From: Cryptosporangium phraense
Lineage (GTDB): Bacteria > Actinomycetota > Actinomycetes > Mycobacteriales > Cryptosporangiaceae
Direction: 5' to 3'
NCBI RefSeq assembly: GCF_006912135.1
Contig: NZ_VIRS01000018.1
Span: 124,001 to 188,000, forward strand
Length of the DNA stretch: 64,000 bases
Made by a program: the position numbers and the translations under genes. This document shows, in pieces, positions 9,363 through 62,731 of this stretch. How positions within the stretch are numbered: position 1 is the first letter of the stretch; each line of letters opens with the position of its first letter. The notes beneath the pieces were generated by a model. The model was not told the origin of the DNA, made no database searches, and saw nothing but the letters and a program-made list of their open reading frames with translations.

Positions 9363-9941
9363 CTAGGGGGCGCCGATCGTGCCGGGCTCTGGGACGTAGG
9401 GCTGGAAGAAGTCGTTGGCCGGTGCGCCCTCCACGGTGAGGACCAGCGCGGGAATCGACATACCGTCTAGCTGCTCTCGGATGATGTCGGCGTGGCCGGC
9501 ATGCCGGGCCATCTCCTCGATCTGGTGCACCAGGTAGTACCGCCAGCGAACCGGCTGCTCGGTGAAGCGTCCGTGCCAGGGCGCGGGCGGCTCGATCGTG
9601 ACCGCATCCGGGTCGGCGGCCGCGAACGCCTCCAGGTACTCGGCCCGGGCCGCGTCGAACTCGGCGATCAGCGCGGTGGTGGTCTCGTCCGGAGCGGGCG
9701 CGAAGCTGGCCAGGTAGGCGTCGAAATCCATCGACGGGGTGCCTCGCAGCCGGGCGGCCGCTCCTCGCATGCCGTGGGCGGCGTGCTTGATCAGGCCCGC
9801 GATCGACAACGAGCTGCGGCAGGGCGTCTCGCGGCTCTGCGCCTCGGTCAGCCCGAAGGCCGAGGCGCGCAGCGCGTCGAGCTGCTGAACGAGATAGCGC
9901 AAGAGACCGGTGATCTCGTCGTGCTCGGCCGGCGCGTACAT
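9363..9941 (-). CDS. DinB-family protein
   Basis: 192 residues with the four-helix DinB fold pattern. The metal-site histidines are HDE near the start (APAEHDEITG), IKHAAHG in the middle, and LVHQIEEMARHAGHADIIRE near the end. Actinobacterial members include mycothiol-dependent enzymes, usually with unknown substrates. It stands alone between convergent and same-strand neighbours. The 9236-9362 gap holds a minus-strand stretch of about 45 codons that reads like the tail of a lost gene but has no start. Confidence 0.88.
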   Translation of the reverse strand: MYAPAEHDEITGLLRYLVQQLDALRASAFGLTEAQSRETPCRSSLSIAGLIKHAAHGMRGAAARLRGTPSMDFDAYLASFAPAPDETTTALIAEFDAARAEYLEAFAAADPDAVTIEPPAPWHGRFTEQPVRWRYYLVHQIEEMARHAGHADIIREQLDGMSIPALVLTVEGAPANDFFQPYVPEPGTIGAP

Positions 9942-9973
9942 CGGCGCCTCCCATCCTGTAGGCCGGGCCGAGC

Positions 9974-10900
9974 CTAGAGGTCGACTACGACTTTTCCGTG
10001 CACGTGCCGTCCGGCCTGGAGTTCGACCGCGGCCCGGATCTCGTCGATCGGGAACGTGGCCGCGATCGGCACCCGGAGCCGGCCGTCCGCGACCAGGCGG
10101 GCGACCTCCTCGAGGGCGCCCGGGGCGGCGTTGGCCCCGTTCGCCGACCTGATCCCGTCGACCTGGCCGGCGATGGTGGTGATGCGCGCGTCAGGCACGC
10201 CGATCTCCCGCGCCGTCCGGACGGTGTCCGTCCCGAAGAGGTCGATCGCCGCGGTGACGCCGAGGGTGCGCACGCGCTCGGCCAGGCCGTCGCCGTAGGC
10301 GACCGGCTCCGCTCCGAGGGAGCGGAGGGCCTCGGCCGACGTCGCCGATCCGGTCCCGATCACCCGCGCTCCGGCCAGACGGGCGAGCTGGACGGTGAAG
10401 ACGCCGACCCCGCCGCCCGCACCACCGATCAGGACCGTGTCGCCGGGGCCGGGCTCGACGACGGCCAGGGCGGCGGCGGCCGTGGATCCGGCGATGGCCA
10501 GCGTGGCGGCCGTGCGGTCGTCGACGCCGTCGGGCGTGTGGTGCACGGCGCTGCCCGTAGCGATCGTCGCGGCCAGGTCCAGGACGACGTGGTCGGCGAT
10601 CGCGCGGGAGACGGCGCCGCCGAACACCCGGTCGCCGACCGCGAACCCGGTCGCGCCGTCGCCGACCTGGTCGACGACCCCGGCGTAGTCGGTTCCGAAC
10701 CCGGACGGCAGGCTCAGGCCGAACCGGGCCGCGGTCTCGTCGTCGGAGGTCATGAACCAGTCCATCGGGTTCAGCCCGGCCGCGGTGACCCGCACCCGGA
10801 TCTGCCCCGGGCCGGCCTCCGGCGCCGGAACCTCGCGGACTCCCAGGACCTCGGGACCGCCGAACGACTCCAGGAGGACCGCCCTGCTCTGCGTGCTCAT
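9974..10900 (-). CDS. NADP-dependent MDR oxidoreductase, TetR-controlled
   Basis: 308 residues from ATG 10900, with AGGGAGC upstream. It is a zinc-independent quinone-oxidoreductase-like protein: N-terminal GroES-like fold (AAGLNPMDWF, GDRVFGG), then the NADPH-binding GGAGGGVGVFTVQLARLAGA and a C-terminal substrate region ending HGKVVVDL. It is divergent from a TetR gene, with a 20-bp dyad between them, so it is the likely target of that regulator. A role in reducing quinones or electrophiles is inferred from the family. Confidence 0.9.
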   Translation of the reverse strand: MSTQSRAVLLESFGGPEVLGVREVPAPEAGPGQIRVRVTAAGLNPMDWFMTSDDETAARFGLSLPSGFGTDYAGVVDQVGDGATGFAVGDRVFGGAVSRAIADHVVLDLAATIATGSAVHHTPDGVDDRTAATLAIAGSTAAAALAVVEPGPGDTVLIGGAGGGVGVFTVQLARLAGARVIGTGSATSAEALRSLGAEPVAYGDGLAERVRTLGVTAAIDLFGTDTVRTAREIGVPDARITTIAGQVDGIRSANGANAAPGALEEVARLVADGRLRVPIAATFPIDEIRAAVELQAGRHVHGKVVVDL

Positions 10901-10910
10901 GCTGCTCCCT

Positions 10911-10962
10911 AAACGGACTATGATCCGTTTAGACGCTAACACAACCGGAGCGTGATCCGTTT
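10911..10962. promoter_or_regulatory. TetR operator in divergent promoter
   Basis: A dyad with arms AAACGGA and TCCGTTT spans 10911-10930, 10 bp upstream of the oxidoreductase ATG. A second half-site copy (TGATCCGTTT) recurs 32 bp away at 10953-10962, ending on the first base of the TTG start codon of the TetR gene. Overlap with both gene starts fits mutual repression by the TetR protein. Confidence 0.75.
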
Positions 10963-11534
10963 TGACTGACCCCGACGCCCGCGTGCTGCGCGCGGACGCG
11001 AGCCGGAACCGTGACGAGCTGCTGAAAGTCGCGACTCGGGTGTTCGTGTCGGCCGACTCCCCACCGTCGATGCGGGCGATCGCCCGGGAAGCCGGCGTCG
11101 GCATCGCCACGCTCTACCGGCACTTTCCGACGCGCGAGGCGCTGGTCGACGCGGTCTATCGCGACCAGGTCGAGCGGCTCACGGCCGGCGCTCGCGGGCT
11201 GCGCGCCGAGCTCCCGCCGGCGGAGGCGCTGCGGCGCTGGATGGACCTGTTCGGCGAGTGGATCGCGACCAAGAACGGCATGCTCGACACGCTGCTCGCG
11301 ATGATCGAGTCGGGCGAGATCGCCCACGTCCGGACGCAGACCGAACTGCTCGCGGCCATCGACGGCCTCCTCGACGCGGGCCGCGCGACCGGCGAGTTCC
11401 GCACCGACGTCAGCGCGGAGGACGTGGCGGCCGGGCTCATCGGCATCTTCACTGTGTCCTGCTCGTCCGGGAGCGACGGCCGGACGGATCGCCTGCTGAA
11501 CGTCTTTCTGGACGGCCTGCGGCACAGGGCCTAG
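10962..11534 (+). CDS. TetR-family regulator
   Basis: 190 residues from a TTG at 10962, with GGAG 11 bases upstream; the protein begins TDPDARVLRADASRNRD. The helix-turn-helix is PPSMRAIAREAGVGIATLYR. The C-terminal domain resembles the tetracycline-repressor-like SCO1402/YcdC group (WIATKNGMLDTLLAMIESGE). It is divergent from the MDR oxidoreductase, and the shared dyad lies at both starts, so it probably represses both. Its 3' end overlaps the convergent MarR gene by 4 bases. Confidence 0.9.
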   Translation: MTDPDARVLRADASRNRDELLKVATRVFVSADSPPSMRAIAREAGVGIATLYRHFPTREALVDAVYRDQVERLTAGARGLRAELPPAEALRRWMDLFGEWIATKNGMLDTLLAMIESGEIAHVRTQTELLAAIDGLLDAGRATGEFRTDVSAEDVAAGLIGIFTVSCSSGSDGRTDRLLNVFLDGLRHRA

Positions 11535-52701: not shown

Positions 52702-52773
52702 CGCCACCGCACGGTCGCGCGGCGTCGCCACCGCACGGTCGTGCGACGTCGCCACCGCACGGTCGCGCGGCGC
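52702..52773 (+). repeat. 24-bp tandem array, three units
   Basis: Three 24-bp units, each starting CGCCACCGCACGGTCG and ending in a variable GYGCGRCG part. Sits in the middle of copy 1 of the large repeat. The period of 24 gives 8-residue repeats in every frame. Confidence 0.85.
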
Positions 52774-53064
52774 GGCCCGGGCGTGGGTCGGCTGAGGGCG
52801 GGCGCGGGGACGACCTCGGGTGGCGTCGGCCGGGTCTGTGGGTTGGCGGCCGCGACAGCCCGATCCGATCGATCTCGACGCGTTGCTGGCGGGCGCGGTC
52901 AGCGCTGCGCGAAGTCGGTGGGGAACCGTTCCGAACCGGTCGGACGCGTTTCCGGGCCCGCGGTCTGCAGACGATTCGGTACGCGGCGCGGCGCGGGTGC
53001 GATCAGCGCTGCTGGCGAGGATGCGGCGATCGGCTGGAGCCCGGTTGGGCCGGGCGGCCGGGTC

Positions 53065-53208
53065 CGCCACCGCACGGTCGTGCGGCGTCGCCACCGCACG
53101 GTCGTGCGATGTCGCCACCGCACGGTCGTGCGGCGTCGCCACCGCACGGTCGTGCGATGTCGCCACCGCACGGTCGTGCGACGTTGCCACCGCACGGTCG
53201 CGCGGCGC
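53065..53208 (+). repeat. 24-bp tandem array, six units
   Basis: Six units of the same 24-bp repeat as at 52702-52773; the last has T in place of the first C. The last three bases alternate in a higher-order pattern (GGC, GAT, GGC, GAT, GAC), which suggests expansion by two-unit steps. Confidence 0.85.
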
Positions 53209-53793: not shown

Positions 53794-53861
53794 TCATGAA
53801 GTCCTCATGAGAATCAGCCCCCGATAAACCCCGCTCATGAGCGGCTCATGAAGGTGAGTCG
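53794..53861 (+). promoter_or_regulatory. paired TCATGA boxes upstream of binding-protein gene
   Basis: TCATGA occurs at 53794, 53805, 53835 and 53846: two pairs, each pair 11 bp apart as for OmpR-type regulators. TGAGTCG follows 9 bp after the start of the last box (53855-53861). The same set is found at 56645-56697. They probably bind the OmpR-type regulator encoded at 55914-56648 and activate the gene at 53969. Confidence 0.75.
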
Positions 53862-53968
53862 ATCGCTGAAAATAGAGTCGCTTATTTGCCCGATCGGCTT
53901 TTCTTTGCGCTCCGGGCTGTGATCGAATTCGTCCGTCGCTGCCGATTCCCGTGGAAGAAAGCTGGTCG

Positions 53969-55171
53969 ATGAGCTTACGCAAGATGTTTACTGGGGCGAT
54001 GGTCGCGGCGCTGGTGAGCGTCGCCGCTGCCTGCGGAACCAGTGAGGAGAACGGCAGTTCGGAGTCGGGCACCGCGTTCACTCCGCCGAAGTTGTCGGCG
54101 CTGAACAAGCTCGGCACCCCCGAGGGCGCGTTGAACGTATTGGCGTGGGCGGGGTACGCCGAAGACGGTTCGAACGACCCGAAGGTCGACTGGGTGACGC
54201 CCTTCGAGAAGGCGACCGGGTGCCAGGTCGACGTGAAGGTGTTCGGCACGTCCGACGAGGCCGTGTCCCTCATGAAGACCGGCCAGTACGACACCGTGTC
54301 CGCGTCCGGAGACGCCTCGCTGAGGCTGATCGCCGGCGGGGACGTCGAGCCGGTCAACACCGGCCTGGTGCCGAACTACGCCGACCTGTTCCCGTTCCTG
54401 AAGAACCAGGCCTGGAACAGCGTCAAGGGCGTCTCCTACGGCATCCCGCACGGGTGGGGCGCGAACCTGCTGATGTACCGCACCGACACGGTGAAGCCGG
54501 CACCCACGTCCTGGTCGGCCGTGTTCGAGGACAACCCGTCCACCAAGGGCAAGGTCACGGCGTACGACTCGCCGATCTATATCGCCGACGCGGCGCTCTA
54601 TCTGATGAAGACGAAGCCCGACCTGAAGATCACGAACCCCTACGCGCTGGACGACAAACAGTTCGCAGCAGCCGTCGGACTGTTGAAGAAGCAGAAGGCG
54701 AACGTGGGGGAGTACTGGTCGGACTATCTCAAAGAGGTGAGTGCGTTCAAGGCCGGTGACTCCGTGGTCGGCACGACCTGGCAGGTCATCGCGAACGTCG
54801 CGAAGACCGAAGGCGCGGACGTCGAGGCGGTCCTCCCGTCCGAGGGGTCGACCGGCTGGTCCGACACCTGGATGGTCGGCGCGAAGTCCAAGCACAAGAC
54901 GTGTGCGTACAAGTGGCTGGACCACATCGTATCGCCGAAGGCGAACGCGCAGGTGGCCGAGTACTTCGGCGAATCACCGGCGAACCCGAAGGCGTGCGCG
55001 TTCACCGCGGACAAGAAGCACTGCGACACCTACCACGCCGGTGACGCGGCCTACGCCAAGCAGATCTGGTACTGGTCGACGCCGATCACCCAGTGCCTCG
55101 ACGGCCGCACCGACGTGAAGTGCACCGATTACTCCGCTTGGACCAAGGCCTGGACGGAGATCAAGGGGTAG
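53969..55171 (+). CDS. polyamine-type solute-binding lipoprotein (copy 1)
   Basis: 400 residues from ATG 53969 with GGAAGAAAG upstream. Lipoprotein signal ending VSVAAAC (Cys22). The rest is a PotD/PotF-like (COG0687) binding fold: NVLAWAGYAEDGSNDPKVDW, SLMKTGQYDTVSASGDASLR, YGIPHGWGANLLMYRTDTV. Six Cys in the mature part could form three disulfides. No permease or ATPase gene is near. A gapless paralogue, about three quarters identical by eye, lies at 61045. The regulator boxes upstream tie it to the kinase operon, so a sensing role is proposed. Confidence 0.9.
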   Translation: MSLRKMFTGAMVAALVSVAAACGTSEENGSSESGTAFTPPKLSALNKLGTPEGALNVLAWAGYAEDGSNDPKVDWVTPFEKATGCQVDVKVFGTSDEAVSLMKTGQYDTVSASGDASLRLIAGGDVEPVNTGLVPNYADLFPFLKNQAWNSVKGVSYGIPHGWGANLLMYRTDTVKPAPTSWSAVFEDNPSTKGKVTAYDSPIYIADAALYLMKTKPDLKITNPYALDDKQFAAAVGLLKKQKANVGEYWSDYLKEVSAFKAGDSVVGTTWQVIANVAKTEGADVEAVLPSEGSTGWSDTWMVGAKSKHKTCAYKWLDHIVSPKANAQVAEYFGESPANPKACAFTADKKHCDTYHAGDAAYAKQIWYWSTPITQCLDGRTDVKCTDYSAWTKAWTEIKG

Positions 55172-55180
55172 GACCCGCTC

Positions 55181-55214
55181 GGCCCGCCCGGTCGACGTAC
55201 GTCCCGGGCGGGCC
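55181..55214. terminator. bidirectional terminator hairpin
   Basis: A perfect 11-bp stem (GGCCCGCCCGG with its complement) with a 12-nt loop between the binding-protein gene and the convergent membrane-protein gene. Confidence 0.75.
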
Positions 55215-55230
55215 CTGCATCAAGCGCACA

Positions 55231-55842
55231 TCAGATCGAGATACGAATACCCAGGAGGTTGACGTCGATGAGCTTTCCGCGCTCGTCCTCGTCGCCGTTC
55301 CCGTCGTCCGAATCGGCCGGCGGGGTGGGAGACGGGGACTCGTCCTCGTCGGCCGGCTCTGACGGCGCCGGGCTCTCGGACTCGGCCGCGGCCGACTCCG
55401 ACGGCCGAGGGCTGGCCGACGCGGACGCGGTGGCCGACGGCGACGCGGTGACGGTCGTCTCCTGGGCGTCGTTCTCGGTCTCGACGGAGAGCGGCCGACC
55501 GGGAGCGGCCAGCGGAGCGTCGGTCTCACTCGGATGCCGGCTGGGCAGGCCGAGCGCCTCGGTCTCGCCGGGGCGCAGCAGGCCGAGCACCACGATCGTC
55601 GCGTACGCGAGCCCGATCAGGCTGGCCACGCAGAGCGCGAACCGCACCGTGCGCGCGGTCCGCGACGAGGCGAAAGCCGGTTCGTCCTCGCGTAACTGCT
55701 CCCGTCTGCGGCGACGGTGACGGTGGCGACCGGGTCGGGTCGGGTCTTCAGCGGTCTCGGTCGGTCTGTCCAGCGCCTCGGTCAACGACTCCTCATCGGG
55801 GTCGTCCACTAGCGCCAGCGGCACCTGAGCCATGAGGGACAT
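55231..55842 (-). CDS. single-pass membrane protein with acidic Ser/Pro tail (copy 1)
   Basis: 203 residues from ATG 55842 (AAGG upstream). A cytosolic N-terminal part with the basic stretch GRHRHRRRRREQ, one membrane helix (about 68-90, FALCVASLIGLAYATIVVLG), then about 110 residues of Ser/Pro/Ala/Glu/Asp-rich outside tail ending GKLIDVNLLGIRISI. No known domain. It lies tail-to-tail with binding protein 1; a protein of the same layout lies tail-to-tail with binding protein 2. Function unknown; it may partner the lipoprotein at the membrane. Confidence 0.75.
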   Translation of the reverse strand: MSLMAQVPLALVDDPDEESLTEALDRPTETAEDPTRPGRHRHRRRRREQLREDEPAFASSRTARTVRFALCVASLIGLAYATIVVLGLLRPGETEALGLPSRHPSETDAPLAAPGRPLSVETENDAQETTVTASPSATASASASPRPSESAAAESESPAPSEPADEDESPSPTPPADSDDGNGDEDERGKLIDVNLLGIRISI

Positions 55843-55913
55843 GTTAAGCCTTGTGTCCGGTTGTGCCTAGTTGTACTGATGGTTCCGCTGTTAAGTGATT
55901 CCATTGTGGCTGG

Positions 55914-56648
55914 TCACGCGGGCTCGGTCTGCCGAATTTCGACGACGTACCCGGCGCCGCGGACGGTGTGGATCAGCGTCGGGTCGCCGAGCTTCCGGCG
56001 CAGTTGGGCGACGACGACGTCGACGACGTTCGACATCGGCTCGGTGCGTGAGTCCCAGCAGTGCTCGATGAGCTGGCCCCGGCTCACGATCTGCCCGTGC
56101 GCCGACGCGAGGATCTCCAGTACCGCGAACTCCTTCGCGGTGACGGTCAGCAGCACGCCGGCGCGGCGCACCTGCCGTCGCCGGACGTCGATCTCCAGGT
56201 CACCGACCCGCAAGACCGCCTGGGTGGGGCCGTCCTCGGCCGCCGATCGGCGGCAGAGGCTGCGGACGCGCGCGACGAGCTCGGCCGTGGCGAACGGTTT
56301 AACCAGGTAGTCGTCACCGCCGGACGTGAAGCCGGCGACCCGGTCGGCCACCGTGTCGCGGGCGGTGAGGAACAGCACCGGCGTCCGCCAGCCGCTCTGC
56401 CGCTGGCCCTCGACGTACGTGATGCTGTCGCCGCTGGGCAGGATCCGGTCGAAGACGACGCACCCGTACGGGTGCGTGGTGATCGCGTCGTGCGCCGGCG
56501 GAATGTCGTCGACCAGGTCGACGGCCATGCCCGCACCGCGCAGCGCCGCGGAGACCGCGTAGCCCAGCTCCGCCTCGTCATCCACCACCAGGACACGCAT
56601 GCCGCACATAGTGCCAGTGCCGAAGACGTTCGAGGTAATCGTCTTCAT
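55914..56648 (-). CDS. OmpR/PhoB-family response regulator
   Basis: 244 residues from ATG 56648, which has GAGGAATTC upstream; receiver homology begins at the Met of 56600 (MRVLVVDDEAELG), so a shorter form is possible. Receiver with Asp67 in VVFDRILP and Lys in LVKPFA; winged helix with LTVTAKEFAVLEILASAHGQ, IVSRGQLIEHCWD and the tail DPTLIHTVRGAGYVVEI. The partner kinase is probably the divergent NIT-domain protein. The TCATGA boxes overlap its own 5' end, so it is probably autoregulated. Confidence 0.9.
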   Translation of the reverse strand: MKTITSNVFGTGTMCGMRVLVVDDEAELGYAVSAALRGAGMAVDLVDDIPPAHDAITTHPYGCVVFDRILPSGDSITYVEGQRQSGWRTPVLFLTARDTVADRVAGFTSGGDDYLVKPFATAELVARVRSLCRRSAAEDGPTQAVLRVGDLEIDVRRRQVRRAGVLLTVTAKEFAVLEILASAHGQIVSRGQLIEHCWDSRTEPMSNVVDVVVAQLRRKLGDPTLIHTVRGAGYVVEIRQTEPA

Positions 56649-56697
56649 GAATTCCTCATGATTGACGCGCTCATGAGGAATTAATGAGGCTGAGTCG
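56645..56697. promoter_or_regulatory. paired TCATGA boxes in regulator/kinase gap
   Basis: TCATGA at 56645, 56656 and 56671 and TAATGA at 56682: two pairs with 11-bp spacing, then TGAGTCG at 56691-56697. The inner parts also form a 12-bp inverted repeat (AATTCCTCATGA and TCATGAGGAATT, 9-bp spacer). Spacing of the last box to TGAGTCG (9 bp) equals that at 53846-53861, so the two sites are copies of one control element. Confidence 0.8.
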
Positions 56698-56834
56698 TTG
56701 TGAACAAATCCTTCGGTTTAATTGACGGACAGGCTTTCCTTGCCAGTTTCCATTGTGGTGAAATGCAATTCGAGCCGGACCGCGGGAGTCTCGTCCGGGC
56801 TTGTTCACCTACTGATCGCATGGACGGAGGAGTC

Positions 56835-59800
56835 GTGCCAACGTCCCTTCTGGACCGGAGCCCAACACGGCCACCGGAAGGCAGGACAGAGCAGGTGGAC
56901 AGCACCGAGGAGCCGCCGTCGTCCGAGCTCGACACGGATTACCGAACAGGCGTCGGGACCCGCCTGTTCGGCAACACGTCGATCCGGCTGAAGGTCATCT
57001 GGATCACGCTCGTTCCGCTGATCGCGATGTTCCTGTTCTCGGGAATCGTCGCCCGATCGGTTCTCGACGAGGCCCAGACCGCGAGCAAGATTCAGGATTT
57101 CGCGCGCCTGGGCAACGAGTCGTCGTCGCTGGTCGACGTTCTCCAGATCGAGCGCTCGTCGGCCGCGGCGTACGTGACCGACCCGGGAAAGACGCCGAGT
57201 CATCCGACGCTGAAGCATTTCGTCGAGCAGGGTCGTAACACCGATGCGGGTTTCCGCCGGTTCCTCGATCAGTACGAGAGCCTGGACCCGGAGATCGCCG
57301 CGCCGATCAGCTCCGAGTTCGAGCAGGTGAAGCGCGGCTACGCGGTGATGACCCGCAACCGCGACTCGGTGATCGACCAGGCCCGCAAGGGCGGCGTCCG
57401 GGTCGGGGCGGCGGTGACGATCTACGAGCAGCTGATCACCAGCCTGCTGCAGATGAAGGAGCGCCTGGCCGGTGCGGCCGCCGGTGACGAGCAGCTGTCG
57501 GCCCAGCTGACCGCGGTGTCGGCGTTCGCCAAGTACAAGGAGGCGATCTGGCAGGAGCAGATCGTCGTCCGGACCGCGCTGGAGGACGGCAACAAGCGCT
57601 TCACGAACGACACGTTCGGCTCGTTCCGGGCCGCGGTGTCGGACGAGAGCGCGTTCCGCAGCCAGTTCATGCTCAGCGCGACCGACCGTCAGCAACAGAT
57701 CCGCAACACGACGCTGACCGAGGAGCTGACCTACCAGCAGCTCCGGACCCGGGCCCAGAACGCCGGGCTCGGCAACGCGCTCTCGTTCGGCCTGGCGACC
57801 TGGCTGGAGACCAGCGACCGCGAGAACACGCTGCTCCGCTCGATCGAGCAGCAGCTCAACACCGCGACCGTGCAGGACGCCGGCTCGTTCCGCACCGACG
57901 CGATGCAGCAGGCGATCATCGTCATCACGATCGCGCTGGTGGCCCTGGTCGTGGCCCTGCTGGTCTCGCTGGCGGTCGCCCGCTCGATGGTCCGCCCGCT
58001 GGTGCGGCTGCGGACGAGCGCGCTCGAGGTCGCCTATCAGTCGCTGCCGGACGTCGTCCGTAAACTGCAGGACGCGGACCAGCAGACGGCGGCCCAGGCC
58101 TCCGCGGAGACCGCGGCGAAGACCGTCGACATCCGGTCGGGTGACGAGATCGGCCAGGTCGCGCAGGCGTTCAACGCGGTCCACCTGGAGGCCGTGCGGG
58201 TCGCATCCGAGCAGGCCCAGCTGCGCCAGAGCGTCTCGTCGATGTTCGTGAACCTGTCCCGGCGCTCGCAGCTGCTGGTCGACCGGTTGATCCGGTTGAT
58301 CGACGGTCTGGAGCAGGGTGAGCAGGACCCGGACCGGCTGTCCGAGCTGTTCAAACTCGACCACCTCGCGACCCGGATGCGCCGGAACGACGAGAACCTC
58401 CTCGTCCTCGGCGGTGCCGAGTCGGGCCGCAGCTGGGCCAAGCCCGCGCCGCTGATCGACGTCCTCCGGGCCGCGACGGCCGAGGTCGAGCAGTACACCC
58501 GGGTCAAGCTCGGGTCGATCGACGAGGGTGCCGAGATCGCCGCCGGGGCGGTGAACGACGTCGTCCACCTGGTCGCGGAGATCCTGGAGAACGCGACCTC
58601 GTTCTCCTCGCCCCGCACCGACGTCACGGTCGACGCCCGGCGGGAGGCCGGCCAGGTCGTCATCGAGGTGATCGACCACGGCATCGGGATGTCCCGGCAG
58701 CAGCTCGCCGAGTTCAACGAGCGGCTGGCCAAGCCGCCGGTGTTCGACATCGCGGTCTCGCGGATGATGGGCCTCTTCGTGGTCGGCCGGCTGGCCTCCC
58801 GGCACGGCGTCAAGGTGATGCTCCGCGACGCGACCGGCGGTGGTGTCCTGGTGATGATCACGCTCCCGTCCGGGGTCCTGCACGTTCCTGCCCCGGCTTC
58901 GGACGCTTCGCGGGTGAGCAGGGCCGACGTCGGTAACCGGCCGATCGAGCGGGTCGCGTCGGAGCGTCTCGACCTGCCGAAGCGCGAGCCGTTCAACGGC
59001 TTCGCGACGAAGGCGACGGCGTCGACGTACGCGCCGACCTCCGGGTTCGGGAACTGGGCGAGCCCCGCGCCGGTCAGCCCGGCGCCGGCCAGCACCTCGC
59101 CGTACACGCGGACGGCGGACTCGTGGTCGGCGTTCGACCCGCCGACGGTGCGGAACGTCCCGCCGGCGCCCGCGCCCGCTCCCAGCGAGCCGAGTTGGTC
59201 GGAGGCGACGCAGCCGATCAGCGTGTTCCCGGAGCCGACCGTCGAGATGCCGTTGCCGATCTTCGAGGCGACGAACTCCGACTGGTTCCGGACCAACCCC
59301 AACCTTCCTCGTGTGCCGGAGGCCCCGGGCGCTTATGCGCCCGCTTCAGACCCGGCGTCGGTCCGTGCGGAGTACTCCGCGGCGGGGCGGTCGTCGACTA
59401 CAGACCCGGCGTCGGTCCGTGCGGAGTACTCCGCGGCGGGGCGGTCGTCGACTACAGACCCGGCGTCGGTGTTGGACTCCGCCCCTGCACCGGCGCCGGC
59501 CTTTCCCTTCACTCCGGCCGCGGCCCCGGCCCCGTGGCCGGCGCGGGGGCCGCGGCCGCCGGCCGGTGCCCGGCCGGCGTCCGCGCTGCCGCCGGTCGCG
59601 GTCCCGTCGCTAGCGGCCTCAGCGGTTTCCGCGCGGTCGTCGGTCGCGACCGCGTCCCGTACTCCGGCCCCTCCATCGGTCCCGACGCCGATGGCGGGGC
59701 CGGCCGAGCCGGCTCCCGCGCCAGCGGTGTCGTGGGAGTCACCGGCCGACAGTGGGTGGAAGGCGGCCCAGGCGGCGGCCGAGAAGGCCCCCACTGCCCT

Positions 59801-59978
59801 GACCGACTCGGGCCTTCCCAAGCGCGTCCCGATGGCGCACTACGTGCCCGGCCGCGTCGAGCGGGCGCCGAAGCTCGCGCCGACCCAGCGATCGCCGGAG
59901 GCGATCCGCGGCGTCCTGTCCAGCTACCGCAGCGGTCTCGAGCAGGGCCGCCTCCAGAGCACCAAGGAGGAGCAGTGA
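56835..59978 (+). CDS. cvnA-like: NIT-domain sensor kinase heading a conservon-like operon
   Basis: 1047 residues from GTG 56835 (GGAGGAG upstream). The frame is open back to 56700, but that would leave no room for a promoter next to the boxes. Membrane helix 1 ([19 protein letters not shown]), outside NIT domain (about 60-340; [20 protein letters not shown]), helix 2 ([20 protein letters not shown]), HAMP, a helical segment with His510 in [10 protein letters not shown], and an HATPase with [12 protein letters not shown] and [12 protein letters not shown] 330-residue Pro/Ala tail follows and contains a 54-bp duplication. It belongs to the CvnA group of actinomycete sensor proteins. Confidence 0.9.
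59349..59456 (+). repeat. perfect 54-bp tandem duplication inside the kinase tail
   Basis: Units 59349-59402 and 59403-59456 are identical and add 18 residues each ([18 protein letters not shown]) to the Pro/Ala-rich tail. The first 14 bases recur at 59457. Perfect identity points to a recent slippage event that kept the frame. Confidence 0.95.
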
Positions 59979-60406
59979 CTACGGCCCCAGCGCTCAGCCA
60001 CGACGCTCAGAACCTGAACTGGCTCGTCGGCAACTTCGCCAACCGCGTCCCCGGCATCGCCCACGCCGTGGCCGTGTCCGCCGACGGGCTGCTGCTGGCG
60101 GTCTCCGACGGGTTACCGCGCGACCGCGCCGACCAGCTCGCCGCGATCGCGTCCGGGCTGGTGAGCCTCACCCACGGTGCGGCGCTCTGCTTCGAGGGCG
60201 GGAACGTCAGCCAGACCGTCGTCGAGATGGACACCGGCTTCCTGCTCGTCATGTCGATCAGCGACGGCTCGTCGCTGGCCGTCCTGGCCTCCCGGTCGTG
60301 CGACATCGGCCAGGTCGGCTACGAGATGGCGCTGCTGGTGGAGCGCGTCGGCCAGGTGCTGACGCCCGCGCTCCGGTCCGAACTACACGGCGCGCTGTCG
60401 CTGTAG
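59975..60406 (+). CDS. cvnB-like: roadblock/LC7-domain protein (CvnB-like)
   Basis: 143 residues from GTG 59975, overlapping the kinase stop (GTGA). Roadblock fold: [60 protein letters not shown]. In conservons these proteins bind the GTPase and the sensor protein at the membrane. Followed after 12 bp by the GTPase gene; the usual DUF742 (CvnC) gene between them is absent. Confidence 0.93.
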
Positions 60407-60418
60407 AGGAGATGTCCG

Positions 60419-61048
60419 GTGAACTTCGGTAACACGAGCACGCTCGACGCGCCCCGTATCTCGTCCACCGCGACGTCCGCCAAGATCGTCGTCGCCGGCG
60501 GGTTCGGCGTCGGAAAGACGACCTTGGTGGGGTCCGTCTCCGAGATCACGCCACTGACGACGGAGGCGATCATGACCGCGGCGTCGGTCGACGTCGACGA
60601 CGTCTCCGGCATCGGCGGGAAGACCACGACGACGGTCGCGATGGACTTCGGACGCATCACGATCGACGAGGAGCTGATCCTCTACCTCTTCGGGACGCCC
60701 GGCCAGACGCGGTTCTGGTTCATGTGGGACGAGCTGGTGCGGGGCGCGATCGGCGCGGTCGTGCTGGTCGACCCGCGGCGGCTGGCCGACTGCTTCTCGG
60801 CCGTCGACTTCTTCGAGCAGCACGGGGTTCCGTACGTCGTCGGGATGAACTGCTTCGACGGAATGCAGTCCAACACGATCCGGGAGATCCGCGAGGCGCT
60901 GTCGATCCGGCCGGACGTGCCGATCATGGCCTGCGACGCCCGACGCCGTGAGTCGACGAAGAACCTGCTGATCGCGCTGGTCGAGTACGTGCTCCGGATG
61001 CGCGGAACGGCGGCGCTGGCGAGCCGGCTCGCGGTGCCCCAGACGTGA
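60419..61048 (+). CDS. cvnD-like: Ras-like GTPase of conservon type (CvnD-like)
   Basis: 209 residues from GTG 60419 with AGAGGAGAT upstream. P-loop VVAGGFGVGKTTLVGSVSEI, switch region ITPLTTEAIMTAASVDVDDV, G3 motif LFGTPGQTRFWFMWDELVRG (the usual form in this family, in place of DTAGQ) and VGMNCFDGMQ at the G4 place. It cycles between GDP and GTP and is thought to carry the signal of the sensor protein. Its stop overlaps the GTG of binding protein 2, so the GTPase and lipoprotein are made together. Confidence 0.92.
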   Translation: MNFGNTSTLDAPRISSTATSAKIVVAGGFGVGKTTLVGSVSEITPLTTEAIMTAASVDVDDVSGIGGKTTTTVAMDFGRITIDEELILYLFGTPGQTRFWFMWDELVRGAIGAVVLVDPRRLADCFSAVDFFEQHGVPYVVGMNCFDGMQSNTIREIREALSIRPDVPIMACDARRRESTKNLLIALVEYVLRMRGTAALASRLAVPQT

Positions 61049-62241
61049 ACCGCTCCCGAAAGGTCGTGGTCGCCGCGCTGGCCCTGGTGCTGGCCGTGGC
61101 CGGCTGCAACGCCAAGACCGAGGCCGACGACGGCGACGACGCCGGGTTCGCCCCGCCGAAGCTGTCGGCGCTGTCGGAGCTCGGGACGCCGGAGGGCGCG
61201 CTGAGCGTGCTCGCCTGGGCCGGCTACGCCGAGGACGGGTCGAACGACCCGTCGATCGACTGGGTGACGCCGTTCGAGCACGCGACCGGCTGCCAGGTGA
61301 CGGTGAAGGTCTTCAACACGTCCGACGAGGCCGTGACGCTGATGAAGACCGGCAAGTACGACGTCGTCTCGGCCTCCGGTGACGCGTCGCTGCGACTGAT
61401 CGGCGACGGCACGGTCGAGCCGGTGAACACCGACCTGGTGCCGAACTACGTCGACATCTACAGCTTCCTGAAGAACCAGCGCTGGAACAGCGTCGACGAC
61501 GTGTCGTACGGGATCCCGCACGGCTGGGGCGCGAACCTGCTGATGTACCGCAAGGACGCGGTGCACCCGGCGCCGACGTCGTGGAGCGCGGTGTTCGCGC
61601 CGAGCCTCTCGGTCGTCGGCAAGGTCACCGCGTACGACTCGCCGATCTACATCGCGGACGCCGCGCTGTGGCTGATGAGGCACCAGCCCGACCTCGGGAT
61701 CACGAACCCGTACGCGCTGGACGACAAGCAGTTCGCGGCCGCGATCGCGGTGCTCGAGCAGCAGAAGGCCAGCGTCAGCGAGTATTGGAGCGACTACGCC
61801 GAGAACGTGGCCGCGTTCAAGGCCGGCGACTCGATCGTCGGCACCAGCTGGCAGGTCATCGAGAACGTCGCGAAGACCGAGGGCGTGGACGTCGAGGCCG
61901 TGCTGCCGTCGGAGGGGTCGACCGGCTGGTCCGACACCTGGATGCTCAGCGCGAAGTCCAAGCACAAGACCTGCGCCTACAAGTGGTTCGACCACATCGT
62001 CAGCCCGCAGGTGAACGCGCAGGTCGCCGAGTACTTCGGGGAAGCGCCGAGCAATCCCAAGGCGTGCCGGTTCACGACCGATCCGCAGCACTGCGCGGTG
62101 TACCACGCCAACGACGCGGGGTACGCGAAGCGCATCTGGTACTGGAGCACGCCGCTCGCCTCCTGCCTCGACGGGCGGACCGGCGTGCGGTGCAAGGACT
62201 ACGAGGACTGGGCCCAGGCCTGGACCACGATCAAGGGCTGA
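61045..62241 (+). CDS. polyamine-type solute-binding lipoprotein (copy 2), last gene of conservon
   Basis: 398 residues from GTG 61045, overlapping the GTPase stop (GTGA). Signal ending LAVAGC (Cys20). From F-x-PPKLSAL to the last residues it aligns without gaps to the protein at 53969, with all six mature cysteines kept (TGCQV, KTCAY, KAC, HC, CLDG, CxDY). The binding-cleft segments (GIPHGWGANLLMYR, AYDSPIYIADAAL) are the same, so both probably bind the same or a similar ligand. It has no transport genes of its own; the coupling to the GTPase points to signalling. Confidence 0.9.
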   Translation: MNRSRKVVVAALALVLAVAGCNAKTEADDGDDAGFAPPKLSALSELGTPEGALSVLAWAGYAEDGSNDPSIDWVTPFEHATGCQVTVKVFNTSDEAVTLMKTGKYDVVSASGDASLRLIGDGTVEPVNTDLVPNYVDIYSFLKNQRWNSVDDVSYGIPHGWGANLLMYRKDAVHPAPTSWSAVFAPSLSVVGKVTAYDSPIYIADAALWLMRHQPDLGITNPYALDDKQFAAAIAVLEQQKASVSEYWSDYAENVAAFKAGDSIVGTSWQVIENVAKTEGVDVEAVLPSEGSTGWSDTWMLSAKSKHKTCAYKWFDHIVSPQVNAQVAEYFGEAPSNPKACRFTTDPQHCAVYHANDAGYAKRIWYWSTPLASCLDGRTGVRCKDYEDWAQAWTTIKG

Positions 62242-62243
62242 AC

Positions 62244-62274
62244 TCCCCTCACCGCGTGCGCGTGGGTGAGGGGA
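62244..62274. terminator. bidirectional terminator hairpin
   Basis: A perfect 10-bp stem (TCCCCTCACC with its complement) and an 11-nt loop. It closes the conservon operon and overlaps the last codons of the convergent membrane-protein gene. Confidence 0.7.
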
Positions 62275-62731
62275 ACAGGTTGGACCAGAACGATTCCGGG
62301 GAGTCCGGCGACTCCGAGGGAGACACCGAAGGGGAGGCGGGCGTGGCTGCCTTCTTCGACGGTGCGGAGCGCGCCGGACGTGTTGGGGTCGGCGCCGGTG
62401 ACGCGGCTTGACGGGGCCGCGTCACCGGCGCCGGTGCGGACGTCCTGGGCGCCGGTGTGGTGGGCGACGGCGCTGCGGAGCTGGCCTCGTTCGGCAGCGG
62501 CAGCGCGGTGTTCCCGTGGCCACCGCCCAGCATGCTGACGCCGAGCAGCGCGGTGTACACGACCGCGGCCCCGCTCGCGACGCCCAGCCCGACCTTCAAC
62601 CAGCGGCGTCGTCGCCCGGTGTGGTCGAGGAAGATCGCGTGATCGGCCTGAGTGGCGGGGCCGCCGCGGCGGTGCCGACCGGCTTTGGTCACGGCCGTCA
62701 TCAGGACGGTATCGGCGTCGTTCTCAGACAT
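62249..62731 (-). CDS. single-pass membrane protein with Ser/Pro tail (copy 2)
   Basis: 160 residues from ATG 62731. N-terminal basic GRHRRGG, a second basic cluster GRRRRWLK, one membrane helix (about 45-68, VGLGVASGAAVVYTALLGVS), then a Ser/Pro/Ala/Thr tail of about 85 residues ending SFWSNLFPSPTRTR. Layout, basic motif and the VAS-Y-T helix pattern match the protein at 55231, so they are probably paralogues. It is likewise tail-to-tail with a binding-protein gene. Confidence 0.75.
   Translation of the reverse strand: MSENDADTVLMTAVTKAGRHRRGGPATQADHAIFLDHTGRRRRWLKVGLGVASGAAVVYTALLGVSMLGGGHGNTALPLPNEASSAAPSPTTPAPRTSAPAPVTRPRQAASPAPTPTRPARSAPSKKAATPASPSVSPSESPDSPESFWSNLFPSPTRTR

Follow-up and report, generated by a model that had tools for sequence, protein, structure and literature searches.

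Between positions 53794 and 62731 of the window analysed here, a 64,000-nucleotide stretch of the Cryptosporangium phraense genome (contig NZ_VIRS01000018.1, positions 124,001 to 188,000 of the forward strand), lies a conservon-like signalling locus framed by two genes for solute-binding proteins (SBPs). In this genome, G000, the order is SBP1, the membrane-type protein TM1 and an OmpR-type response regulator, then a divergent NIT-domain kinase, a roadblock protein, a small GTPase and SBP2 (Table 1). The genes of the kinase train are tightly packed, with a 4-bp overlap between kinase and roadblock, a 12-bp gap between roadblock and GTPase and a 4-bp overlap between GTPase and SBP2. An initial annotation, made from the sequence alone, had described this minus-strand regulator divergent from a kinase-roadblock-GTPase-lipoprotein series, and its coordinates and junctions are as we find them.

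Table 1. Features of the locus in window positions, and loci at which a second type of lipoprotein follows a conservon GTPase.
Feature	Position or locus	Strand	Remarks
Two boxes TCATGA-N5-TCATGA	53794-53810, 53835-53851		Upstream of SBP1
SBP1, solute-binding lipoprotein, YdcS/PotD family (SBP_bac_8), 400 aa	53969..55171	+	Lipobox AAAC, read from sequence
TM1, membrane-type protein	55231..55842	-	After the regulator on the same strand; one apparent transmembrane segment, Pro/Ser/Thr-rich tail
OmpR-type response regulator, 228 aa	55914..56600	-	PF00072 and PF00486
Two boxes between regulator and kinase	56645-56661, 56671-56687		Second reads TCATGA-N5-TAATGA
CvnA-type kinase: NIT (57129-57863), weak HAMP, HATPase_c, C-terminal LPKR	56835..59978	+	Predicted GTG start behind GGAGGA
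CvnB-type roadblock/LC7 protein, 143 aa	59975..60406	+	PF03259, E 1.4e-21
CvnD-type small GTPase, 209 aa	60419..61048	+	PF03029
SBP2, diverged solute-binding lipoprotein of SBP1's family	61045..62241	+	Start overlaps GTPase stop
TM2, membrane-type protein, weakly similar to TM1	62249..62731	-	Strand relative to SBP2 opposite to that of the G012 and G026 homologs
OpuAC lipoprotein directly after a conservon GTPase	L079, L269, L270, L271, L272, L274

The NIT and HATPase_c domains of the kinase score above their Pfam cut-offs, and its HAMP match is weak (22.2 bits, cut-off 25). The kinase probably begins at the GTG at 56835, behind GGAGGAGTC, a placement suggested by GGAGGAGTCGTG, a stretch common to all three genomes that carry the locus. 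The start of the regulator was set at 56600, because that of the longer open reading frame (56648) falls inside one of the boxes. D8, D51, T79 and K101, which we take to be its receiver residues, are all present.

The conservon core and its response regulator

Is this a conservon in the usual sense? We searched 60 genomes of the class for relatives of the GTPase, found them in 41 and fetched 100 surrounding stretches (one truncated match was excluded), to which seven loci of the genus were added. Genes of the fetched loci were called with a home-made script, whose lipobox test also flagged cytoplasmic-looking proteins such as the 359-aa proteins of L139, L140 and L144. Roadblock-GTPase pairs were recovered 95 times. 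More than 150 bp separate the two genes in 92 of them, which leaves room for CvnC (DUF742); the other three have no such room and are the window locus (12 bp) and its two orthologs (13 and 25 bp).

Like the conservon/AGPS systems (CvnA-D), the locus combines in one operon a NIT and HATPase kinase with the conserved histidine and an LPxR tail, a roadblock protein and a small GTPase, which qualify as CvnA, CvnB and CvnD. In 1027-aa numbering, the kinase has H490, N566 and D594, with LPKR at 974; the LPxR extension is a described feature of CvnA (PMC4316618). Counted from the GTG at 56835, this histidine is residue 510. Of 83 kinases, 77 have the histidine and every one has the N-box asparagine and the G-box aspartate; the window kinase has all three. 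With the five further GTPases of this type in its own genome, the GTPase shares 55-77% identity. Unlike conservon/AGPS systems, the locus is devoid of CvnC, includes a response regulator with sites of its own and carries a lipoprotein gene after the GTPase. Because CvnC was tested for and is absent, this is not a standard conservon; it looks like a conservon to which a two-component output has been added. The initial annotation had named DUF742 as a conservon part and passed over its absence here. For CvnC itself, one account gives exchange factor as its likely role in the Mfp system (PMC13343842), and another classes it as a protein of the helix-turn-helix type (PMC8510531).

As a separate observation, the roadblock protein of a sister conservon in the same genome (L081 7042-7464) is 94% identical to that of the window, while the two GTPases are 75% identical. 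Gene conversion between the roadblock genes was considered and dropped: the identities (86% in DNA, 94% in protein) match between-species values, and selection explains them equally well.

A response regulator occurs in the stretches of four of the 83 complete kinase-roadblock-GTPase trains, namely the three orthologous loci and L199. We rejected L199 as a second case of a conservon joined to a regulator: its regulator is followed by a kinase of its own, in whose sequence HAMP and a HisKA-like motif can be read. The regulator of the window possesses the receiver and the OmpR-type DNA-binding part of a two-component system and lacks the adjacent HisKA partner; HisKA gave no match in the window kinase or in the scanned neighbours. 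Its nearest relatives (394 class genomes, E 1e-65 or better, best 7 candidates per genome) are five genes in four genomes, 55-65% identical to it, and in all five cases a HisKA kinase comes directly behind the regulator gene. Our literature search met no conservon with a response regulator in the accessible text of the matching papers, most subscription papers being beyond its reach, and CvnA1 to CvnA13 of Streptomyces coelicolor are all listed as orphan kinases (PMC9739842).

Conservation of the locus and its direct repeats

A search for the same gene order in other genomes, which the initial annotation had proposed, recovers it in two of the three other genomes of the genus that were examined, G012 (L044) and G026 (L046). 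There, too, two SBP copies frame the block, which runs SBP1, TM1, regulator, kinase, roadblock, GTPase, SBP2 and TM2, and across the order-keeping genomes SBP2, the regulator and the GTPase share 77-86% protein identity. G000, G012 and G026 each have the binding protein in three close copies; the remaining genome, G036, was searched for lipoproteins and boxes and has only a 42% relative. From the order, 397 genomes were sampled, and 53 of them contain a relative that reaches E 1e-80 or better. With the best 4 candidates per genome scored, two or more copies exceeding 70% identity are found only in G000, G012 and G026, so that the exact arrangement is known from three of the 397 genomes, all of a single genus. 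As our searches scored the best 4, up to 9 or 7 candidates per genome, extra copies or relatives may have been missed.

The two promoters of the locus carry boxes that consist of 11-bp direct repeats, an arrangement that fits a regulator of the OmpR/PhoB type. That the second lipoprotein gene, SBP1, is preceded by the same boxes as the kinase operon had been noted earlier; both of its boxes, at 53794 and 53835, are indeed there, and their occurrence goes beyond chance. G012 and G026 likewise have one box pair each in front of SBP1. The strict pattern occurs seven times in the four genomes of the genus, every time within the two promoters of the locus and never in G036, and a reversed control yields no occurrence. 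When as many as 3 mismatches to the consensus TCATGAGGAATTCATGA are allowed, the four genomes contain 19 sites, as against 2 for the reversed control. All nine sites with at most 2 mismatches are inside the locus, and all ten with 3 mismatches are elsewhere; the box at 53835 departs too much from the consensus to figure among the 19. At least one box pair is present in each of the six promoters of the three loci, and half-sites are missing from all three promoters of the transporter operon described below. When the spacing is relaxed to 2-8 bp, 2 further places outside the locus appear in the window's own genome.

Since the sites with at most 2 mismatches are confined to the two promoters of the locus, the regulator appears to act locally, with itself, the conservon operon and SBP1 as predicted targets of binding. 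The earlier notion of a regulator that reports to genes in general is not supported: no site with 2 or fewer mismatches lies outside the locus in any of the four genomes, and degenerate sites may still exist elsewhere.

Could the locus be a recent duplication cluster of functionally uncoupled genes? Its restriction to one genus in our sample and the close relation of the three SBP copies would suit such an origin. Against it stand the overlapping genes, the boxes in six of six promoters and an order that is kept at 77-86% protein identity, and we regard it as very improbable. A different question is which kinase serves the regulator. Conceivably it is phosphorylated by another kinase, or is active unphosphorylated, and the conservon signals through its GTPase alone, in line with the published argument that the GTPase must be the output since conservons include no response regulator (PMC4316618). 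CvnA8 is reported to autophosphorylate under stimulation by CvnF8, H183 was tested as the site, and the target of phosphorylation is called unknown (PMC13343842, 2026); L199, moreover, demonstrates that an ordinary two-component system can sit divergent to a conservon. We nevertheless consider this explanation unlikely, given that no HisKA kinase adjoins the regulator, that near-consensus sites are confined to the locus and that the order is kept in three genomes.

Around these genes, TM2 (62249-62731) is inverted relative to SBP2 when compared with its homologs in L044 and L046. The C-terminus of TM1 (55234-55278), GKLIDVNLLGIRISI, is kept in G012 although the stalk varies; in G026 it is less well conserved. 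The topology given for TM1 is a by-eye reading of its sequence, not a computed prediction, and neither TM1 nor TM2 matched a Pfam family. A 24-bp tandem repeat in two arrays (3.0 and 5.8 copies) lies upstream of the locus at 52702-53204. A scan for promoters and terminators found nothing.

The binding lipoproteins and their transporter relatives

What do the lipoproteins bind, and for whom? SBP1, SBP2 and a third copy, SBP3, match NF041888 (YdcS) over almost their full length (355, 331 and 366 bits, respectively), under the NCBIfam equivalog cut-off for YdcS (725 bits). The predicted model of SBP2, with a mean predicted local distance difference test score (pLDDT) of 90.6, finds its best structure match in 6nlp (E. 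coli YdcS, 42% identity), followed by PotD and PotF. Fold and full-length sequence of SBP2 both match YdcS/Pot-type binding proteins, in accordance with the initial assignment to a polyamine-binding family. Unlike YdcS, PotD and PotF, SBP1 and SBP2 sit in a signalling locus.

The same annotation regarded both lipoproteins as orphans. This label is only partly right, because SBP3, which is 74-77% identical to SBP2 and 87-91% identical to SBP1, sits in a transporter operon that comprises an ATPase, the binding protein and two permeases and is found in all three genomes having the locus. The best NCBIfam names for its products are PotA, YdcS, PotB and PotC, below the equivalog cut-offs; the potA subfamily cut-off is reached (364 against 355.6 bits). 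Among 31 other relatives with fetched surroundings (four relatives on short contigs were left out), 22 lie beside both permease types and nine do not (L048-L050, L065, L070, L071 and L073-L075). A scan of genome contigs with SBP2, from which records near its own genome may be absent, returned 3 relatives at 43%, all of the Rhodobacteraceae type.

In a phylogenetic tree SBP2 forms its own clade with support of 100/100, and SBP1 and SBP3 are intermixed. In G026 the DNA of SBP1 (L046 13961-15172) and SBP3 (L047 9560-10723) diverges at the 5' end, but identity is 98-100% in every one of the final ten 100-base windows. Near-identity of this kind between signalling locus and transporter operon means a recent conversion or duplication. 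On these comparisons we conclude that SBP1 presumably keeps the specificity of the transporter, and that the member standing apart is SBP2. SBP2 probably binds the same ligand as its transporter-linked relatives, because it retains 127 of the 131 residues that are invariant in 17 of them.

Both lipoproteins could then be extra binding subunits of the Pot/YdcSTUV-type transporter, with the conservon and its regulator sensing something else through the NIT domain and merely setting SBP amounts. An ATPase-SBP3-permease-permease operon in each of the three locus-bearing genomes, the near-identity of SBP1 and SBP3 in G026, the conserved residues of SBP2 and the boxes, which subject both SBP1 and the operon of SBP2 to the regulator, all agree with this. 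Yet SBP2 overlaps the gene of a GTPase rather than that of a permease, the promoters of the transporter are free of boxes, and an unrelated lipoprotein family, described in the next section, occupies the same position after the GTPase as a stable clade. We see the extra-subunit explanation as a serious alternative, if on the whole a doubtful one.

Genomic context fits putrescine or a related compound as the candidate ligand. Three dehydrogenases beside outgroup operons all score above the cut-off for aminobutyraldehyde dehydrogenase (NF010000), and a GABA transaminase, again above cut-off, lies near L048, a 43% paralog in G026. The dehydrogenase adjoining L048 differs in kind (best match lactaldehyde dehydrogenase, below cut-off). 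Alongside the transporter operon of the window's own genome no aminobutyraldehyde-type dehydrogenase stood out when the genes were read by eye.

Lipoproteins beside other conservons and a model for the locus

Is the lipoprotein after the GTPase peculiar to this locus? Another conservon of the same genome (in L079, on C21) carries an OpuAC-type lipoprotein there (9744-11278), overlapping the GTPase by 7 bp, and its kinase has a NIT domain. The OpuAC type is unrelated to the YdcS-type proteins of the window; NIT kinases accompany the lipoproteins in both cases tested. Relatives of the OpuAC lipoprotein gave 35 matches in 29 of the 397 order genomes. Thirty had loci that could be examined, 1.5 kb to each side, and six of these directly follow a conservon GTPase, the other 24 do not. 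The six come from G000, G012 and G036 (one family) and from G062, G076 and G267 (another), and they form one clade apart from the other 24, with support of 100/99.

The kinds of binding protein found beside conservons also include NMT1, Peripla_BP_4 and SBP_bac_1. Leaving out the three loci of the present arrangement, binding proteins fill 9 of 155 conservon-adjacent slots and 4 of 403 slots farther away (p = 0.002; when each of two ortholog pairs is counted once, p = 0.012). This enrichment is only suggestive, the queries having been picked in part from adjacent lipoproteins and L080, L142 and L147 being parts of whole transporter operons. By eye, L174 and L200 each show a conservon between an OpuAC-type binding protein and apparent ATPase and permease genes of a transporter of the same type. 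In L131 (492-1826), the conservon whose GTPase gave the top match beyond the genus (63%) has as neighbours a GABA transaminase above cut-off and a divergent NMT1-type binding protein. A supposed lipoprotein downstream in L199 turned out to be an MHYT membrane protein; MHYT-domain proteins stand before the kinase in L162, L169 and L172 and after the GTPase in L199, and are a possible further class of sensory partner.

Binding lipoproteins may thus be a recurrent conservon accessory. The published accessories CvnE (a P450) and CvnF (with GAF) go with kinases that have no sensory domain (PMC13343842), unlike the window kinase with its NIT. We found no paper on a conservon with a solute- or substrate-binding protein in a literature search beyond whose reach most subscription papers lay, and the lipoprotein passages in the accessible text of the review PMC9739842 deal with systems other than conservons. 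It may be, at odds somewhat below even, that solute-binding lipoproteins make up a third class of conservon accessory that recurs, having been recruited on two or more occasions (the YdcS type here, the OpuAC type in two families) by copying a transporter SBP to the position after the GTPase to serve as outside inputs to NIT-type CvnA, and that in the present locus CvnC was exchanged for a response regulator as phosphate acceptor.

For the locus itself we tentatively favour, at a little short of even confidence, a self-contained and autoregulated solute-sensing system on a modified conservon, in which SBP2 feeds the kinase. SBP2, anchored outside, would bind a polyamine-type solute and modulate the CvnA-type NIT kinase, which, with its conserved histidine and ATP-site residues, may pass phosphate to the OmpR regulator. 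The regulator would bind the repeats TCATGAGGAAT in the two promoters and so control its own level as well as those of SBP1 and the kinase-roadblock-GTPase-SBP2 operon. Barely distinct from the binding protein of the transporter, SBP1 would mainly serve as an output, loading the separate Pot/YdcSTUV-type transporter, so that the system may feed back on uptake. Roadblock protein and GTPase would form a second branch and may borrow the CvnC of the sister conservon.

Such a role for SBP2 as an outside input has precedents. In NspS-MbaA of Vibrio cholerae and Sinorhizobium meliloti, a polyamine-binding protein likewise signals to a membrane sensor (PMC8967002, PMC9993111); the output there is c-di-GMP through MbaA, and no histidine kinase, GTPase or response regulator is described in the accessible text. 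For GlnH-GlnX-PknG of Actinobacteria, a solute-binding lipoprotein is proposed to act outside the cell as the sensor of a system whose signalling output is cytoplasmic (PMC6069109), through GlnX and a Ser/Thr kinase in contrast to the histidine kinase with roadblock and GTPase found here.

Several points weigh against our proposal. The exact locus is confined to one genus, most sampled conservons have no neighbouring binding protein, degenerate regulator sites may lie elsewhere, and SBP2, with nearly all invariant residues intact, may still serve the transporter. Of the original idea of a sensory system, the coherent locus (in three genomes), the shared boxes and the polyamine-family binding proteins are supported, as are other conservons with a lipoprotein after the GTPase; orphan status for both lipoproteins and a regulator with transcription at large as its output are not supported.

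On what conservon kinases sense and phosphorylate, the locus supplies a candidate input (SBP2, with a guessable ligand class), a candidate acceptor (the receiver domain) and a readable output (two repeat-bearing promoters), and the OpuAC cases provide a second, independent test of the idea that lipoproteins act as inputs. If our proposal is true, a conservon kinase would have a nameable phosphate acceptor, unlike in the published accounts as far as their text was accessible. The locus thereby makes testable what such G-protein systems sense and how they reach genes.

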